From a virus, in IMG/VR virus record IMGVR_UViG_3300032241_000984, positions 1 to 21,476 of that record: DNA of 21,476 bases; one strand, written 5' to 3'. Shown here one piece after another: positions 1,098-10,686 of the stretch. How positions within the stretch are numbered: position 1 is the first letter of the stretch; each line of letters opens with the position of its first letter. The notes under the pieces are model-generated. The model was not told the origin of the DNA. It searched no databases and worked only from the letters and a program-made list of their open reading frames with translations. Made by a program: the position numbers and the translations under genes.

Positions 1098-3641
1098 ATG
1101 ACACAGGCATATCAATTAAGTGATCTTGGACAACTACTGACAGTTGATACTGTCGGTAACAATATCACATTGGCTGCCAATAGTTTTGTTGTTGGTAATG
1201 CTTCTGTTAATGCTACTATTAACTCGACTGCTTTTACAGGTACAGCTAACAATACATCATATTTTGGTGGTGTTGCTGCTTCGTCATACGTTAATACGTC
1301 TGGCTCATATACTATTTCAGGCATTCATACGCATACGGCTAATTTAATTGTTAATGCGGTTTTATCTGTTAACAATGAAGTTGTTTCGGGTAATGGTTTC
1401 TATTCTAATTCTACGTTTGCTGGTGCACCTACATATGGCGATGGTATTGTTGTCGATTACGTCACAGGTAATGGGCGTATTTCAGTTGGATCTGCTGACG
1501 GCATTACTCTTTATACAAACGGGGTTGCTGGCGTTGCAATGGCTTCTGCAAATACCTCTGGTTTTTATATTGCCAATGGTGGGGTTAACGCTGCTTCTTT
1601 TAACGTTAGCACTTCTACAATTGCTAACTCAACGGGTGTATATACTGGAGTTGTCAATGCAACTTCTATAACCACTACAAACGCATATTTTTCTGGTTCT
1701 GCAAATATTGCTGGAAATTTGGTTGTTAGTGGAAACGTTGCTATCTCAGGCAATCTTACCATCTCAGGTAATACTGTTTCAATCGGCGCGAATAATCTTG
1801 CTGTTCTTGACTCTGTTATTTCTCTTCATACGCAAGCTAACTTAGCGCCATGGACAACTAATGATGGTCAAAATATCGGTGTTTCTTTTCACTATTATAA
1901 TGGTGCTGATTCACAAGCATTGCTTGACTTAGATAATAGTAGTGGTCGTTTGATATGGTGGGCCAATTCAACAGATGCTATTTTAGGTAATCCATCAGGC
2001 ACTGCGTTAGGTACTTTCCAAGCAAATACTCTTTGGGTTGGTACTAATACTGTTTATACTGTTGTTAATAGTACTGGCTTCAGTGGCACTGCAAATAATT
2101 CTTTATATCTTGGTGGTACTGCAGCTGCTAATTTTGTACAAAATTCTGGCGCGTATACTATTTCGGGTGTTCATACACATACTGCAAACGTAGTATTAGC
2201 AGGTTTAATAGCAAATGGAAGTATAGGTTCATCAGGTCAATATCTTACATCAAATGGTTCTAGTACATATTGGTCAGCAGGTTCTAGTTATACTTTTGGT
2301 ACTGGATTAGTCAATAGCTCAGGTACAATAACCGTTGACTCTTCTTATATTGCTAAAATATCTGCTAACAATGCATCATATCTTGGTGGTGTTGCTGCTT
2401 CATCATACGCTTTACTTTCAGGTCCAACATTTACTGGTACAACAACAACTTCCGCCCTCACAGTAAATGGAGGATTTTATCAGGGTTCTGGATACGCGTA
2501 CATAGGATATTATAATTCAGCTGGCGCTTATCCGAGTCCCGCAAATTCTTTAGGAATTGGTTCCAATTTCACTAATGGTAATTCTGAAATAAATCTTTGG
2601 AATACATATAACCCTTCAACCTATTCTTCCACTGGTTTTAGATTTATGCAACAATTAACATCAAGTACATATCGAGACTTGATGTTTTTAAGACAAGATG
2701 GGTATATAGGTTTTGGTACAATATCACCAATTAGACCAATTCATTTTAATAATGGAACAAATGTTTTTGAAATGAGTTGTTCAGGTTCCTCATCGTCGGG
2801 AACTTCCTATTTTAACATATCAGATTCATCAGGAAGCAATGGCGGCGGGTGGTCTTATATTATCAGAGGGCTTGCAAGCAGTGGCAGTGCTACTGTTAAT
2901 CTTTCGGGTATGTCTATATATTCTAATTTGTTAACAGTTTATGGTGGTTTAATAACAAGCGGAACAGGTGGGTTTTTATCCTCACAATCTGGTCTCACCA
3001 ACGAACCTGGTTCTGTAAGTGCAACGAATTGGTTTAGAACTTATGGTGCCACTGGACTTTATTGGGAAAGTTATGGAAGAGGTATTTCTCCGACCGATGG
3101 CTTTGTTAGCTATGGTAATTTGTGTGTTTATGGATCAGGTCTTAATGGTTGGCAAGGTATATCATTTACTACTGGCAATAATACCATTTTAATGGGTAAT
3201 GGTAGTAGTTGGGGTGTTTATAATCCTTCCACTAGTGTGTGGATGATGATTAGCGATTATAGTGGTAACGTCACATTTAACGGTAACGTTGCAGCTTATT
3301 CAGATCTTAGATTAAAACAAAATGTGCAACCTATTGACAATATAACTCAACGTAGAAATACTCTTGCATTAAGCGCTATTAAATATGAAAGAGATGGACG
3401 TACAAGAATTGGTTACGGTGCTCAAACACTAAGAGACAATGGCTGTTCAGAATTTGTTATGGAACAAAATGACTCTTTAAAACTTGTTACTGGTTTGGGT
3501 ACTCTTTCTGTTGATTATGGCGAAACATCAGCTATACTTGCAGTTGCATCTAAAAATACGGATGATAAAGTTGATGCTTTAGAACAACGTATTGCATATC
3601 TTGAATCTGTTATTAGCAATTTTTTGGGAGATAAAAAATGA
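1098..3641 (+). CDS. Large tail fibre with C-terminal S74 intramolecular chaperone (847 aa)
   Basis: This is a long trimeric fibre protein. ATG at 1098 follows AAGGTAGAGA. The shaft is Gly/Ser/Thr/Asn-rich with beta-repeats (for example VSGNVAISGNLTISGN around residues 209-224) and duplicated units at residues 42-82 and 324-364. Residues about 253-288 (DGQNIGVSFHYYNGAD, then an LIWW strand) match a segment I recall from marine T4-like phage fibres. The C-terminal 113 residues are a peptidase S74 (endosialidase-type) chaperone: YSDLRLKQNV with the Ser735-Asp736 pair, a GYGAQTL motif, and a final coiled coil (VDALEQRIAYLESVISNFL). Known S74 domains trimerise the fibre and cut themselves off just before the Ser. 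It overlaps the next start by 4 nt (ATGA). Confidence 0.93.
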   Translation: MTQAYQLSDLGQLLTVDTVGNNITLAANSFVVGNASVNATINSTAFTGTANNTSYFGGVAASSYVNTSGSYTISGIHTHTANLIVNAVLSVNNEVVSGNGFYSNSTFAGAPTYGDGIVVDYVTGNGRISVGSADGITLYTNGVAGVAMASANTSGFYIANGGVNAASFNVSTSTIANSTGVYTGVVNATSITTTNAYFSGSANIAGNLVVSGNVAISGNLTISGNTVSIGANNLAVLDSVISLHTQANLAPWTTNDGQNIGVSFHYYNGADSQALLDLDNSSGRLIWWANSTDAILGNPSGTALGTFQANTLWVGTNTVYTVVNSTGFSGTANNSLYLGGTAAANFVQNSGAYTISGVHTHTANVVLAGLIANGSIGSSGQYLTSNGSSTYWSAGSSYTFGTGLVNSSGTITVDSSYIAKISANNASYLGGVAASSYALLSGPTFTGTTTTSALTVNGGFYQGSGYAYIGYYNSAGAYPSPANSLGIGSNFTNGNSEINLWNTYNPSTYSSTGFRFMQQLTSSTYRDLMFLRQDGYIGFGTISPIRPIHFNNGTNVFEMSCSGSSSSGTSYFNISDSSGSNGGGWSYIIRGLASSGSATVNLSGMSIYSNLLTVYGGLITSGTGGFLSSQSGLTNEPGSVSATNWFRTYGATGLYWESYGRGISPTDGFVSYGNLCVYGSGLNGWQGISFTTGNNTILMGNGSSWGVYNPSTSVWMMISDYSGNVTFNGNVAAYSDLRLKQNVQPIDNITQRRNTLALSAIKYERDGRTRIGYGAQTLRDNGCSEFVMEQNDSLKLVTGLGTLSVDYGETSAILAVASKNTDDKVDALEQRIAYLESVISNFLGDKK
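1221..1343 (+). repeat. Fibre shaft repeat unit, copy 1 (41 codons)
   Basis: Residues 42-82 of the large fibre carry the pattern N-S-T-x-F-x-G-T-A-N-N, then Y-x-G-G-x-A-A, then Y-T-I-S-G, then H-T-H-T-A-N. The unit recurs at residues 324-364 with the same length and conserved anchors, and a shortened version occurs near residue 422. Confidence 0.85.
2067..2189 (+). repeat. Fibre shaft repeat unit, copy 2 (41 codons)
   Basis: Residues 324-364 match copy 1 in register without gaps, including NSTGFSGTANN, YLGG, the AYTISG strand and HTHTAN. Third-position differences are many, so the duplication is old or maintained by protein-level selection. Confidence 0.85.
2361..2438 (+). repeat. Partial third copy of the fibre repeat
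   Basis: Residues 422-447 repeat the first half of the unit (SANNASYLGGVAASSY) and then switch to SGPTFTG, a common phage fibre linker. The HTHTAN part is missing. Confidence 0.7.
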
Positions 3642-3997: not shown

Positions 3998-4153
3998 ATG
4001 AATACAATAACTCTTGAATTGAACATTGATCAACTTAATATTGTTCTATATGCTTTAAGAAAATTACCTTTTGAAACAGTAGAACAAATTTTACCAGAAA
4101 TCATTAGTCAAGCACAGAAACAGCTGCCAAATGGACCCCAACAGGCTAATTAA
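3998..4153 (+). CDS. 51-aa small phage protein, paralogue of the 64-aa protein at 10492
   Basis: ATG at 3998 is preceded by AAAGGAG at 3983-3989, one of the strongest ribosome binding sites in the window. It encodes 51 residues beginning MNTITLELNIDQLNIVLYAL. The pattern (hydrophobic strand, Asn/Asp-Gln, helix, R-K-L-P-F, helix ending near Q-K-Q-L) matches residues 7-47 of the 64-aa protein encoded at 10492 position by position (T-L-x-L, L-P-[FY], then an I-x-x-Q/F helix). Short proteins of this type occur near fibre genes in other T4-like phages as far as I recall; function unknown. It ends 2 nt before the first Cys-tailed gene. Confidence 0.75.
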   Translation: MNTITLELNIDQLNIVLYALRKLPFETVEQILPEIISQAQKQLPNGPQQAN

Positions 4154-4155
4154 AA

Positions 4156-4443
4156 ATGGCTATTAACTACGCTAGGGATATCTATAACGTTGCTCAGCAT
4201 TACGCTGGTGAAGTTATGGATTATTACGGTTTCACATATCCAGCAGCTACGTCAATGTATAATCTAAATTATTTTAGAGGTAAACCAAGATACGTTGGTG
4301 GCTCTGGACCAGGTGGGCCTAGCCCTGGATATTTTTCTGGTGGGACTATAACTTTAAACGATTTTTATAATACAGACGGTAATTGTAATTGTAATTGTAA
4401 TTGTGATTGCGCGTGTGCGTGTGATTGTGCTTGTAACTGTTAG
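4156..4443 (+). CDS. Cys-tailed protein A: candidate radical-SAM substrate (95 aa)
   Basis: The final 20 residues are ten consecutive Xaa-Cys dipeptides (NC x4, DC, AC, AC, DC, AC, NC); no other cysteine occurs in the protein. Residues 1-75 form a separate region: an aromatic-rich N-terminus (ARDIYNVAQHYAGEVMDYYG), a Gly/Pro-rich hinge (GGSGPGGPSPG, about 48-58) and GGTITLNDFYN (62-72), which resembles strand motifs of phage tail adhesins. The stop is 8 nt before the radical SAM/SPASM gene, whose AGGA ribosome binding site overlaps this stop codon. I infer that the tail is modified by that enzyme. There is no signal peptide. The ribosome binding site is weak, so translation may be coupled to the 51-aa gene just upstream. 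Metal binding by unmodified cysteines is the main alternative. Confidence 0.75.
   Translation: MAINYARDIYNVAQHYAGEVMDYYGFTYPAATSMYNLNYFRGKPRYVGGSGPGGPSPGYFSGGTITLNDFYNTDGNCNCNCNCDCACACDCACNC
4381..4440 (+). repeat. Tandem hexamer array encoding ten Xaa-Cys dipeptides
   Basis: Ten hexamers run in phase to the stop codon. Four are identical AATTGT copies, followed by variants GATTGC, GCGTGT (twice), GATTGT, GCTTGT and AACTGT. The second codon of each is TGT or TGC. Identical adjacent units make replication slippage, and hence length variation, plausible. Confidence 0.95.
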
Positions 4444-4451
4444 GATATAAT

Positions 4452-5861
4452 ATGAAATTTGATATACTTTGCACTGAACCCGATAACGATAAAGTTAGAG
4501 TTAGAAAATTTGTTTATGATAACATGACTTCTGAGATATTTGATGAAAATCAAAATTTAATAGATGTTACCCAAGTATTTGAAAAAGCAATTAAAAAAGA
4601 TTATAGTAAATTTAAAAAAGTAAAAACTGTATCTAAAGAAACACCACTCGGTAAAAGTGATATTAAGCTACTTAAAATTCAACTTGGACTTTCATGTAAT
4701 TATGGCTGTGAATATTGTTCACAAAGATTTGTACCAACCGAAGATGAAACCTCTTCAAAACATGTAGATAAGTTTGTTAAAAATTTAGATCTTTGGATTA
4801 AAGAGCCTGTTGAATGGGTTGAATTTTGGGGCGGTGAACCACTCATTTATATTAAAACACTAAAGCCATTAGCTGAACAACTCAGAGAAAAATGGCCAGA
4901 AGTAAAATTTAAAATAATAACCAATGGCTCACTACTAAATAAAGAGTTGAACGAATGGTTAGAAAACATGGAATTTCATGTTGGTATTTCTCATGATGGG
5001 CCTGGGCAAGCTGTTCGTGGACCTGATCCATTAGAAGATAGAAAAACAAGACAAGCAATTTTAGATCTATTTTATAGATTAGTTGATAAGAATAGAATCA
5101 GTTTTAATTCTATGATTCATCGTGAAAATATGGACCGTAAAAAAATTCAAGAATTCTTTGAAAATCTTTTAGGCGGTCAATATGTACGTATAGGTGAGGG
5201 TGGGTTTATTGACGCTTATGATGAAGGTGGATTATCAAATGCTCTTCAAAATAGAGATGAGCATTTAGCATTTCGCCGTATTACTATGCAGCAACTTAGA
5301 GAAGGTGAAATTCAAAAATTCAATATAACTCGTCAAAGATTGTTCGAATGGCTTGAAACTTTTGCCTTTCATAGACCCGCAGATATTATTGGTCAAAAAT
5401 GTGGTATGGATAACGAACACACAATAGCAGTTGACCTTAGAGGAAATGTTCTTACTTGTCAAAATGTTTCCGCTATTTCAACTGCTCCAAATGGAAAACC
5501 TCATAGAATAGGTCATGTTTCAAAGCTTGATGATGTTAAACTAAATACATCAACACACTGGTCTTTTAGAAAAGAATGCATGGGTTGCCCAGTCCTTCAA
5601 GGTTGTAAGGGAGCGTGCATGTTTCTTGAAGATAAATTATTTAAAGTATCTTGTGATAATGCTTATTCTGATCACCTGCCGTTTTTTGCTGGCGCGTTTG
5701 AAATGGCTACGGGATGTATGCCTTTCGGTATTATAGCTCATGATAAATCTTTACCAGATGATAGATCAGACTTATGGGGACCATTAGATTACGAAGTTAA
5801 ATTACCAGAAACAAGAGTAGCATATGAAAAGAATCTCGAGTCAGGCGATACAGTTTACTAA
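4452..5861 (+). CDS. Radical SAM/SPASM peptide-modifying enzyme A (469 aa)
   Basis: The radical SAM core has CNYGCEYC (Cys82, Cys86, Cys89) for the [4Fe-4S] cluster that cleaves AdoMet, and GGEP at 127-130. The C-terminal half has a complete SPASM pattern: Cys317, then GNVLTC with Cys336, a gap, Cys376-x2-Cys379-x5-Cys385-x3-Cys389, and Cys401. These are the ligands for two auxiliary clusters in enzymes such as sulfatase-maturating and thioether-forming RiPP enzymes. The first 70 residues are a basic, non-core extension shared with the second copy and may recognise substrate. It starts 8 nt after the Cys-tailed gene, so that protein is the obvious candidate substrate. The reaction (thioether formation, epimerisation, other Cys chemistry) cannot be told from sequence. 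Phage origin is clear from flanking genes. Confidence 0.9.
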   Translation: MKFDILCTEPDNDKVRVRKFVYDNMTSEIFDENQNLIDVTQVFEKAIKKDYSKFKKVKTVSKETPLGKSDIKLLKIQLGLSCNYGCEYCSQRFVPTEDETSSKHVDKFVKNLDLWIKEPVEWVEFWGGEPLIYIKTLKPLAEQLREKWPEVKFKIITNGSLLNKELNEWLENMEFHVGISHDGPGQAVRGPDPLEDRKTRQAILDLFYRLVDKNRISFNSMIHRENMDRKKIQEFFENLLGGQYVRIGEGGFIDAYDEGGLSNALQNRDEHLAFRRITMQQLREGEIQKFNITRQRLFEWLETFAFHRPADIIGQKCGMDNEHTIAVDLRGNVLTCQNVSAISTAPNGKPHRIGHVSKLDDVKLNTSTHWSFRKECMGCPVLQGCKGACMFLEDKLFKVSCDNAYSDHLPFFAGAFEMATGCMPFGIIAHDKSLPDDRSDLWGPLDYEVKLPETRVAYEKNLESGDTVY

Positions 5862-7171: not shown

Positions 7172-7660
7172 ATGGCATTTAAGATAGGTAGTACAACAGT
7201 TATTGATGGTAGTGGAAATCACATAAGTACTCAGCAAAACGGTTCTTATGCATTACCTACAGGGTTTTTTAATTCGGCTTCTGTTGATCTCGGTAATCTT
7301 ATTAGATATACAACGTATACTGATGATTTAGCAGCAAACTGTCGTGGTTATCTCCCAAGTGGGAATTGTTATGGTAATCCTCATTGGAATCCACCTAATG
7401 GTAGTTGGTGGACTTGGGGTGTTGGTGTTAATTGTCTTTGCTCTAATGATGTAGGTTACGATTTTGGAGGTGGCCAAACAAACTGTAATTTTTATAATAT
7501 TGCAGTTAATTTAGTTTATGATGGATATTATGAACTCTATAATCGTATTAGAGGATCAGAACAACATCGTAACTATAGTAACTGTAATTGTGCGTCAGAT
7601 TATGGTTCATTTAATAACTGTAATTGTAACTGTGCTTGCAACTGTAATTGCAACTGCTGA
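7172..7660 (+). CDS. Cys-tailed protein B: second candidate radical-SAM substrate (162 aa)
   Basis: GAGGGA at 7163-7168 precedes the ATG. The N-terminus (MAFKIGSTTVIDGSGNHIS) resembles the start of many marine phage fibre and adhesin proteins. The C-terminus holds two Cys blocks: SNCNCAS (136-142) and a terminal run of seven dipeptides (NC x3, AC, NC x3; residues 149-162). Five more Cys, nearly all after Asn or Leu, sit in the middle (57, 66, 88, 90, 105), in a Trp/Gly/Asn-rich region. There are 14 Cys in total. It shares the tail design with protein A but no obvious N-terminal similarity. The downstream genes for a 266-aa protein, a 2OG-oxygenase-like protein and radical SAM enzyme B form its module. 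Modification of the tail is inferred. Disulfide or metal binding are alternatives. Confidence 0.75.
   Translation: MAFKIGSTTVIDGSGNHISTQQNGSYALPTGFFNSASVDLGNLIRYTTYTDDLAANCRGYLPSGNCYGNPHWNPPNGSWWTWGVGVNCLCSNDVGYDFGGGQTNCNFYNIAVNLVYDGYYELYNRIRGSEQHRNYSNCNCASDYGSFNNCNCNCACNCNCNC
7616..7657 (+). repeat. Hexamer array encoding seven Xaa-Cys dipeptides
   Basis: Seven in-phase hexamers (AACTGT, AATTGT, AACTGT, GCTTGC, AACTGT, AATTGC, AACTGC) run to the TGA stop. Synonymous codons alternate (AAC/AAT, TGT/TGC), so the peptide pattern is conserved better than the DNA, unlike the uniform start of the first array. Confidence 0.95.
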
Positions 7661-7668
7661 GAAAATAA

Positions 7669-8469
7669 ATGCAAATATACGTATCATATAATAAAATAGC
7701 CAATCGTTATTATTCATTTGATCTAGCAAATACTAGTCTCAAAATTACAAGAAGTATGAGACCAAACGGAAATACTAGTGCAAATGCTATGATTTCTGAT
7801 CCTGAAACATTTGATCTTCAACAAATAATTAATAATTATTCAGTAGATCACGGTTGTATTGCATTAATTGATACTGCTGATAAACAATATCATTGGATAG
7901 AAACAACCCATCTTACAGCCCAATATAGAGCACCATACGGGAAAACATATTCATCTTTATATGTTGGTAATAATGCGGTTGATGATACTGCTAATACTGT
8001 TGGCAATAATAATTATGCCTCACCTTTCTGGGCACTGAGACAGATAAATGGACTTAATGATTTTAGACCCATTATGTATCTTCTTACCCCTTCTGAGAAT
8101 TGTTCTTTAGATGATACTGTTTTAATTTATAAAGATGCTACTGATGAAACAGATCATTCCATATTAACAGTTAATGGTTTACAACAATCAAATGCAACTC
8201 TTGCACAGGTACAATCTGTAAAAACATTCTTAAATGGTTGGAATCCTGTTAATTTTACATTTACTAATTCAACTGCCTTTGTTGTTGGTGCAAATACAAC
8301 CGGTAACATTTATTTAAATTCATCCGCCGGTATTCTCAATAGAACAGTTGCTAAAAGCGGTCAAACAGTGGTTATAAATACTAGCGGTCTTACAACCGGT
8401 GAACAGATTACTGTAAAAGCCGGTTATAAGTATTATCCTAATATTTCAAATACGGTGATAACTGTCTAA
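7669..8469 (+). CDS. Unrecognised 266-aa beta-rich protein, probably virion-associated
   Basis: The gene starts 8 nt after the Cys-tail stop with only a weak ribosome binding site, so coupling to protein B is likely. I do not recognise the family. Residues 1-60 have alternating strands and polar turns (MQIYVSYNKIANRYYSFDLA), and the middle has a segment SPFWALRQINGLNDFRPIMYLL (about 117-138). The C-terminal 60 residues look like an Ig-like or fibre-type beta domain (NTTGNIYLNSSAGILNRTVA, TVVINTSGLTTGEQITV). There are only two cysteines. There is no enzyme motif. The TAATG overlap with the oxygenase-like gene puts it in the same translational unit. A structural partner of protein B is a reasonable guess. 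Confidence 0.65.
   Translation: MQIYVSYNKIANRYYSFDLANTSLKITRSMRPNGNTSANAMISDPETFDLQQIINNYSVDHGCIALIDTADKQYHWIETTHLTAQYRAPYGKTYSSLYVGNNAVDDTANTVGNNNYASPFWALRQINGLNDFRPIMYLLTPSENCSLDDTVLIYKDATDETDHSILTVNGLQQSNATLAQVQSVKTFLNGWNPVNFTFTNSTAFVVGANTTGNIYLNSSAGILNRTVAKSGQTVVINTSGLTTGEQITVKAGYKYYPNISNTVITV
8373..8380 (+). promoter_or_regulatory. Possible internal late promoter (TATAAATA)
   Basis: An exact TATAAATA lies inside the 266-aa gene, 96 nt before the oxygenase-like start. It could add late transcription for the two enzyme genes, or occur by chance in AT-rich coding DNA. Confidence 0.25.
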
Positions 8470-9104
8470 TGATTAAATCCTTATGGAGTACGAATGTTCT
8501 ACATGATCACCGTGCTATTGAGGTTACTGATGAGGTCTTGCAAGATCTTATAGCCATTGGGAATGAATATGAAAAATACCATCCGGAAGCTCATGTTCCG
8601 GTTGCAATGCGTAATTCTGCAGAAACATCATATAATTTATTAGCAGATAACAGACCTTCATGTCAGTTATATAAGTTAATGCTTAAGCAAAGAATGATTG
8701 AATTAGCTAAAGCAGAAGGATTTCATGATCCTGAAAATATAAGATTTGAAGCGGTTACAAATATGCGGCGCTTTGGTCCTATGGAATATGCTAAACCACA
8801 TAATCATCGTTCTGTTGATTATGTAGCAGTTCTTTTTCTTCAGGTCGGTATAACAGATTATGATATAGATGTACATCAAAAAATGGCCGGTAATAGATTA
8901 CATCTTTTAGATCCAATGCCAATGCGTAATCGTTGGCTTAATCATAATATGTTGCATCCAATAAGTCCAAAGCCGGGGTCATTTATAATTCATCCGGCAA
9001 GTCTTTTTCACACTACTGAACTTAATCTTTCTGATATAGATCTAATAGCATTAGTATCAAATATAAAAATTGTAGATAATGTTAGAAATTATGTGGAGCT
9101 ATAA
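8469..9104 (+). CDS. 2OG-Fe(II)-oxygenase-like protein (211 aa)
   Basis: The central motif KPHNHRSVDYVAVLFLQ supplies a His111-x-His113 pair, followed by a long beta region with HLLDPMPMRN (about 145-154) and GSFIIHPASLFHTTEL with the likely distal His181. This order matches the iron-binding HxH...H core of phage 2OG-Fe(II) oxygenases, which are common beside tail genes of T4-like phages. The Arg that normally binds 2-oxoglutarate about 10 residues after the distal His is not evident; the strand reads DLIALVSNIKI. The gene overlaps both neighbours by 1 nt, so it is translated with radical SAM enzyme B. Hydroxylation of the Cys/Asn tail or of a virion protein is speculative. Confidence 0.7.
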   Translation: MIKSLWSTNVLHDHRAIEVTDEVLQDLIAIGNEYEKYHPEAHVPVAMRNSAETSYNLLADNRPSCQLYKLMLKQRMIELAKAEGFHDPENIRFEAVTNMRRFGPMEYAKPHNHRSVDYVAVLFLQVGITDYDIDVHQKMAGNRLHLLDPMPMRNRWLNHNMLHPISPKPGSFIIHPASLFHTTELNLSDIDLIALVSNIKIVDNVRNYVEL

Positions 9105-10495
9105 TGGCAAAATTTAAAGTATTCGCAAAACACCCAGATACAAAACAAGAACATATTTTGTTTTATGATAATATGTCATCAGTTCTTACATGGGACAATG
9201 GTAATGAAATTTATAATGAGGATATAAGAAAATCCAAACAAGATAATTGGAAAATAGCTGATATAACCACACCTGCTAATCCACTTGGTAAAACTAGTAA
9301 GATTAAAACATTAAAGATACAACTTGGTCTTTCATGCAATTATTCCTGTGATTATTGTTCTCAGAGATTTGTACCGCATGCAGATGAAACAAGTGCTAAA
9401 AATGTTAATAAGTTTGTTTCAAATTTAGATCTTTGGCTTGAAGGTGAACCAAAGCGTATTGAATTCTGGGGTGGTGAACCTCTTGTGTATATTAAAACAA
9501 TTCGGCCTCTTGCTGAAAAGTTAAGAATTAAGTATCCAAATGCACAATTTATTATGGTTACAAATGGTTCATTATTAAACCCAGAGTTAAATGAATGGCT
9601 TGATACTATGGGCTTTAATATTGGTTTATCGCACGATGGCCCAGGTCAACCATTACGAGGACCTGACCCACTAGAAGATTTGGAACAAAAGGCAAATATA
9701 GCAGATCTTTTCCACCGTCTTATTCCACAAGGTCGTATAAGTTTTAATACTATGATCAACCGTGAAAATATGGATCGTGCTGCAATACAAAGATATTTTA
9801 GAAAGTTTTTTGATTCCATTGGAATTACCAATTTTTCTATCGGTGAGGGTGGTGTCATTGATCCTTATGATGAAGGTGGACTTGCACATAGTTTTCATAG
9901 TCGAGAAGAACATTTAGGGTATCGTCGTCTAACATTAAGTCAGACACGACAAAAGAAAAATCTCACCTTTGGTGTTGTGAATACAAGAATTAATGAATAT
10001 ATTACCAGCATATCGCTTAACCGCCCTGCTTCATCACTAGGTCAGAAGTGTGGTATGGATGAAATTGATACAATAGCAGTTGATCTTCGTGGTAATGTAT
10101 TAACATGTCAGAATGTATCTGCTGTTTCAACTGCACCTAATGGTAAACAACATATGATTGGTCATGTATCAAATCTTGATAAAGTAAAATTAAAAACATC
10201 AACTCATTGGTCTGCTCGTAAAGAATGTGTTGATTGTCCCGTTCTTCAATCCTGTAAAGGTGCTTGTATGTATCTTGAAGGTAAATTATGGGATGCAGCA
10301 TGTAACAATGCATATACAGACCACATTCCATTTTGGGCTACAGCAATAGAACAAATGACTGGGTATCTTCCTTATTATATTGAGAATGAAAACTTACCGG
10401 AAGATCGTAAGAATATATGGGGTAATCCAACTGATAAAGCAATTATCCCAGAAACTAGAACAAAAGTAACTGAATTGAAAGGATCCTTACAATGA
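9104..10495 (+). CDS. Radical SAM/SPASM peptide-modifying enzyme B (463 aa)
   Basis: This is a full-length paralogue of enzyme A. CNYSCDYC supplies Cys78, Cys82 and Cys85; GGEP is at 123-126. SPASM cysteines are at 316, 335, 375, 378, 384, 388 and 400, with the same spacing as in A. Long stretches agree between the copies, including SQRFVP, SHDGPGQ, RENMDR, YDEGGL and QKCGMD. Differences concentrate in the N-terminal 60 residues and the C-terminal 50 residues, where substrate selection could lie. It is coupled to the oxygenase-like gene by a 1-nt overlap and to the following 64-aa gene by ATGA. Its nearest Cys-rich candidate substrate is protein B, two genes upstream. Confidence 0.9.
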   Translation: MAKFKVFAKHPDTKQEHILFYDNMSSVLTWDNGNEIYNEDIRKSKQDNWKIADITTPANPLGKTSKIKTLKIQLGLSCNYSCDYCSQRFVPHADETSAKNVNKFVSNLDLWLEGEPKRIEFWGGEPLVYIKTIRPLAEKLRIKYPNAQFIMVTNGSLLNPELNEWLDTMGFNIGLSHDGPGQPLRGPDPLEDLEQKANIADLFHRLIPQGRISFNTMINRENMDRAAIQRYFRKFFDSIGITNFSIGEGGVIDPYDEGGLAHSFHSREEHLGYRRLTLSQTRQKKNLTFGVVNTRINEYITSISLNRPASSLGQKCGMDEIDTIAVDLRGNVLTCQNVSAVSTAPNGKQHMIGHVSNLDKVKLKTSTHWSARKECVDCPVLQSCKGACMYLEGKLWDAACNNAYTDHIPFWATAIEQMTGYLPYYIENENLPEDRKNIWGNPTDKAIIPETRTKVTELKGSLQ

Positions 10496-10686
10496 GAAAA
10501 GAAGATTTTCGCCTTACCTTAACTTTAGATGTTAATCAGGCAAATGATCTATATGTTCTATTAGCTTCTTTACCCTATAATCAGGTTCAATTTCTAATGG
10601 AAGAAATAAGAAAACAATTTGATAAACAAATGATTCCTCCAGAAGATTTTGAATCAGATAAGCCAGAGACAGATTTCCCATTATAA
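10492..10686 (+). CDS. 64-aa small phage protein, paralogue of the 51-aa protein at 3998
   Basis: AAAGGA at 10478-10483 precedes the ATG, which overlaps the enzyme B stop (ATGA). The conserved core (RLTLTLDVNQANDLYVLLAS, then LPYNQVQFLMEEIRKQF) lines up with the 51-aa protein at the other edge of the cassette; an acidic tail of about 17 residues is added. It is predicted to be one strand plus two helices. Function is unknown. The two copies bracket the whole radical SAM region. Confidence 0.8.
   Translation: MRKEDFRLTLTLDVNQANDLYVLLASLPYNQVQFLMEEIRKQFDKQMIPPEDFESDKPETDFPL

Follow-up and report, generated by a model that had tools for sequence, protein, structure and literature searches.

A radical SAM/SPASM enzyme paired with Xaa-Cys-tailed phage proteins: a candidate modification system for tail-fibre tips

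Proteins that carry a run of alternating Xaa-Cys residues on fibre-type backbones are accompanied, almost obligately, by one family of radical SAM/SPASM enzymes. I propose, with a probability of about 0.58, that the two constitute a phage-encoded post-translational modification system for the tip of a tail fibre or adhesin. The description starts from a virus record of 21,476 bases, the whole of which is referred to here as the window, and extends to related loci in other viral and bacterial genomes.

The window contains two Xaa-Cys systems

The first system (Table 1) consists of a small protein and an enzyme. Protein 1 ends in NCNCNCNCDCACACDCACNC, with Cys at every second position of its last 20 residues, and all of its Cys (10/10) belong to these terminal dipeptides, just as a preliminary description of this DNA had claimed; Cys makes up 0.48% of the remaining window proteins. 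Even with ten Cys placed in the last 20 residues, a perfectly alternating order would arise with p ~5e-6. The stop codon of protein 1 and the ATG of enzyme 1 at 4452 are separated by 8 nt (GATATAAT), and the likely Shine-Dalgarno sequence of the enzyme, AGGA, shares bases with the TAG stop, so that the spacing and the overlapping ribosome binding site reported earlier are both borne out.

The adhesin-like N-terminus proposed in the same description fared unevenly. Profile comparisons gave no family match for this part of protein 1, and no relatives of the protein were found among phage records, but elsewhere in the system the fibre assignment stands: many run proteins match, in their N-terminal parts, tail fibre families as well as proteins annotated as fibres in cultured phages. 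For window proteins 1 and 2 it is the gene context that points to a virion role, and for run proteins in general a place in the virion is likely. Neither a transporter nor a leader protease was recognised among the window genes, in keeping with the earlier account, and no leader cleavage or export genes were recognised among the frequent conserved neighbours.

The preliminary description missed a second, fuller cassette at 7172-10495. Its radical SAM/SPASM enzyme is 55-56% identical to enzyme 1, and both match phrog_1802, a family labelled 'radical SAM domain-containing protein' to which no function had been assigned before. Between the run gene and the enzyme gene lie a conserved protein, U, and a 2OG-Fe(II) oxygenase. 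Although the AlphaFold model of U has a confident fold (pLDDT 83), an assignment of function from that fold had to be abandoned, as no solved structure is similar and only uncharacterised phage proteins match. Two short ORFs of similar appearance (51 and 64 aa), at 3998-4153 and 10492-10686, flank the two cassettes.

Run protein, U, oxygenase and radical SAM enzyme, in this order, form the commonest architecture among the loci. Many loci have the run protein and the enzyme alone, without U or the oxygenase, and the enzyme sits before or after the run gene depending on the locus. The idea that the oxygenase governs the X residue was rejected, since loci with and without it show no clear difference.

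Table 1. Features of the two Xaa-Cys systems and their fibre context in the window.
Feature	Coordinates	Strand	Details
Fibre-type protein (fibre context)	1098..3641	+	847 aa; weak match to an S74 chaperone at the C-terminus
Xaa-Cys-tailed protein 1 (proposed substrate)	4156..4443	+	95 aa; 10 Cys, in the tail only
C-terminal run NCNCNCNCDCACACDCACNC of protein 1	4381..4440	+	residues 76-95
Radical SAM/SPASM enzyme 1	4452..5861	+	469 aa; phrog_1802
Xaa-Cys-tailed protein 2	7172..7660	+	162 aa; 14 Cys
C-terminal run NCNCNCACNCNCNC of protein 2	7616..7657	+	end of protein 2
Conserved cassette protein U (function unassigned)	7669..8469	+	266 aa; cluster of 106 loci
2OG-Fe(II) oxygenase of the cassette	8469..9104	+	phrog_81; PF13759 just below cut-off; cluster of 118 loci
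Radical SAM/SPASM enzyme 2	9104..10495	+	463 aa

The Cys run and the enzyme occur together

The co-occurrence check suggested in the preliminary description was run in both directions. The forward test applied codon patterns for the Cys run alone to IMG/VR viral contigs, blind to the enzyme, and recovered 163 distinct run genes; the reverse test started from enzymes with a score of 370 bits or more and 4 kb of upstream sequence, mostly in bacterial genomes. The counts are not fully independent, because some contigs appear in both directions and the loci are kin by descent, but the enzyme set covers 85 rows below 72% identity. Among distinct run genes with full flanks whose run is C-terminal or of the CSK type, 58 of 58 had the enzyme on the same strand; a control with the pattern reversed but of the same make-up gave 87 loci (788 kb), of which 0 had it. 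The run was found at 52 of 54 enzyme loci in the reverse test, and another scan of viral sequences from the enzyme gave 46 of 52. Three of the six misses in this last scan carry shorter or variant Cys runs. The pairing was present in 11 of 12 whole viral contigs, short chance frames (<60 aa) that matched the pattern had the enzyme in 2 of 18 cases, and in the enzyme-seeded loci Cys-run proteins adjoined the enzyme.

The association holds over several unrelated fibre backbones, in phages and prophages, and in several bacterial phyla. Near-obligate pairing of this breadth supports the earlier reading that the phage modifies the tip of a virion protein. As in ranthipeptide and sactipeptide systems, the loci place a Cys-rich gene, the putative substrate, beside a maturase-type enzyme, and from the gene association it is very likely that the run is the enzyme's substrate. 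The enzyme might instead act on another fibre protein, on the host surface or on a small molecule, with the run as a co-inherited neighbour. In favour of this, conservation in many loci extends to U and the oxygenase, and some divergent relatives of the enzyme have no run; yet the run is the sole feature common to unrelated fibre backbones and to loci without U or the oxygenase, and the enzyme gene is found on either side of it, so that another substrate seems very improbable.

Below an enzyme score of 370 the run is found at only 7 of 17 loci, and low-scoring relatives, for example those of Bacteriovorax, Variovorax and Ramlibacter, have no run at the locus. The Bacteriovorax-type relatives without a run (L398 7863-9526 and L401), followed in L398 by a small PqqD-like gene, possibly represent a cellular branch.

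The genes are present in cultured Limnohabitans, Thalassobacter, Nereida, Thalassovita and Polynucleobacter. The enzyme search matched three phage records, and the isolated phages JWF and 2-1 carry the genes. Other arrangements were also observed. Three or four tandem Xaa-Cys genes share a single enzyme at L087, L172, L102 and L202, and the short Xaa-Cys peptide at L033, L097 and L110 (viral contigs G006 and G009) has a group of divergent radical SAM genes, three or four in number, nearby. Proteins of 2081 aa (L143 3914-10159, L173 6708-12953) have an internal NCNCACNCACDC and no such enzyme in the locus. Campylobacter phage CP20 encodes a 69-aa protein with NCxxC repeats (L410 19880-20089) and, in the same region, a distantly related radical SAM gene. 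Finally, in L417 (6274-6762) the ORF right after the enzyme is Gly-rich and collagen-like and has, close to its start, a Cys run in which X is Q, D, V, A, E or L.

Composition and carriers of the run

The run is conserved in hundreds of loci. Cys is the last residue in 80 of 107 distinct tails, and in the loci found from the enzyme ~83% of X residues are Asn, Ala or Asp. Cys codons are mixed (TGC 307, TGT 244), and in the CSK class conservation is 93% in the Cys columns and 66% in the others. Mixed synonymous codons, exact Cys ends and conserved Cys columns together argue for selection on the protein. An origin of the run by chance or as a nucleotide repeat was rejected on the strength of the mixed codons and the co-occurrence tests. 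Simple disulphide pairing within the chain is disfavoured because odd and even numbers of Cys (57 and 50 tails, respectively) are equally common.

What follows the run divides it into three classes: in most families it closes the protein, in others it precedes a conserved domain that starts with CSKIIC, and in the third class it precedes a Hint domain that begins on the run's final Cys, Achromobacter phages JWF and 2-1 being examples. In many prophages, lysis genes of the lysozyme and spanin-like kinds come next. The cyanophage SynMITS9220M01, whose record is absent from the three matched by the enzyme search, has a fibre-locus protein (L411 4669-6519) in which a long stretch of Pro, with eight Arg, stands where the Cys run would be, ahead of a homologous CSK-type C-terminal domain, a swap that suggests that the run serves as a special rod or tip.

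A strand-like segment often precedes the run, and strict alternation fits an extended strand. Phage fibres are trimers, and the needle of T4 gp37 contains HxH iron sites. These features would suit a fibre tip that binds metal or an Fe-S cluster through alternating Cys that face the trimer axis, with the radical SAM enzyme assisting or modifying neighbouring residues. Such a tip would leave the near-obligate presence of a peptide-maturase-type enzyme unexplained, however, and I regard it as quite unlikely.

The enzyme family

Enzyme 1 has the radical SAM motif CxxxCxxC at C82, C86 and C89, invariant among relatives, and a SPASM set that reads C317-x13-G331-x4-C336 ... C376-x2-C379-x5-C385-x3-C389 ... 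C401. All radical SAM and SPASM motif positions are invariant or at least 90% conserved among 47-48 relatives, and the complete SPASM Cys set noted in the preliminary description is thereby confirmed. The seven Cys that define a SPASM domain with two auxiliary clusters are C317, C336, C376, C379, C385, C389 and C401.

PF04055 (radical SAM) is matched above its cut-off, as is TIGR04085 by enzyme 2. The best NCBIfam model is that of the PapB ranthipeptide maturase (NF047865), with 68.4 and 63.1 bits against a cut-off of 340, and the HxsB equivalog (45.8 and 40.9 bits, cut-off 370), the QhpD model (47, cut-off 453) and the anaerobic sulfatase maturase equivalog (45.7 bits, cut-off 349) were also matched. 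Every score is far under its cut-off, and assignment of the enzymes to a named NCBIfam maturase family was rejected.

The AlphaFold model of enzyme 1 (pLDDT 93) has as its nearest solved structure CteB, a thioether-forming maturase, with anSMEcpe second and the epimerase EpeE also among the nearest folds. A Pfam search found no RRE match in the enzyme. Its N-terminal part is short and seems to have none of the helices of a full RRE: in the model, three strands and no helix of at least 4 residues precede residue 103.

The likeness to anSMEcpe and EpeE, together with the annotation of the phage JWF homologue as an anSME, allows for a change to the run other than a thioether, namely conversion of Cys to formylglycine, epimerisation or some other C-H modification that would yield reactive or D-configured tips. 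Against this, neither a CxPxR nor a CxAxR sulfatase motif occurs in the run, and the nearest families are thioether maturases; I therefore consider a non-thioether change unlikely. By analogy with the enzyme family, a thioether product is somewhat favoured.

Proposed mechanism and significance

In the modification system that I propose, the radical SAM/SPASM enzyme would act on the (Asn/Ala/Asp-Cys)n run of its neighbour before virion assembly, most likely by hydrogen abstraction from the alpha- or beta-carbon of Asn, Asp or Ala followed by coupling to Cys sulphur. The product would be a compact, redox-stable and protease-resistant thioether-linked tip touching the host surface, and in the larger cassettes the 2OG-Fe(II) oxygenase and U would take part in the same pathway. 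The links made by PapB run from Cys to the Asp beta-carbon, may span 0-6 residues and can be nested (PMC9413430), which makes dense cross-linking of the run chemically plausible. Asn and Ala would be new acceptors for PapB-type chemistry.

Some findings count against this scheme. PapB needs a carboxylate acceptor and has a natural CX3D spacing, whereas in the run most acceptors would be Asn or Ala, and their spacings odd. In the model, the stretch before the enzyme's core looks too short to form a full RRE. Protein 1 has an N-terminus without detectable relatives, and the low-scoring enzyme relatives lack the run.

It is probable that phages equip their fibres with chemically modified tips. 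The arrangement would work chemically like known RiPP maturation, and its use on virion proteins would be new; no description of a phage radical SAM enzyme tied to tail fibres or RiPPs was found in open-access papers. At a little under even odds, one may go further and picture widespread phage virions with receptor-binding tips knotted by thioethers of radical SAM origin, a RiPP pathway transferred from secreted peptides to viral structural proteins and sometimes combined with Hint self-cleavage and 2OG hydroxylation. If true, fibre tips made by radical chemistry would add a new class to the modifications of virion proteins, a PHROG without a function would receive one, as perhaps would some unexplained radical SAM genes of aquatic phages, and maturases acting at the end of large folded proteins would become available.

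Comparison with known systems

The closest likeness is to PapB (freyrasin) and CteB (SCIFF), in which a radical SAM/SPASM enzyme also stands beside a Cys-rich substrate and which are the top NCBIfam model and top fold, respectively. The phage systems differ from both in their fibre-type substrate with Xaa-Cys alternation, in having neither an exporter nor a leader protease, in a PapB score of 68 where 340 is the cut-off, and in that a full RRE is not seen. In the His-Xaa-Ser system (HxsA/HxsB/HxsC), too, a short-period repeat is paired with radical SAM/SPASM enzymes; here, by contrast, the repeat is a Cys dipeptide, it is phage-borne, and HxsB is a weak match (45.8 against 370). QhpD makes radical SAM thioethers inside a working protein, a subunit of quinohemoprotein amine dehydrogenase, rather than in a secreted peptide, although its cross-links are few and fixed within an enzyme subunit and its model scores 47 against 453 here. 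The nearest remark in the literature concerns a T4-like virus of marine origin, also rich in such enzymes, whose 12 radical SAM genes and Fe-S carrier gene its authors ascribed to a proposed Fe-S cluster-related metabolism (PMC5332604). Finally, Achromobacter phages JWF and 2-1 share the enzyme family and have a fibre with NCNCDCNC(NC)SC, the difference from the window being that their run continues into a Hint self-processing domain.
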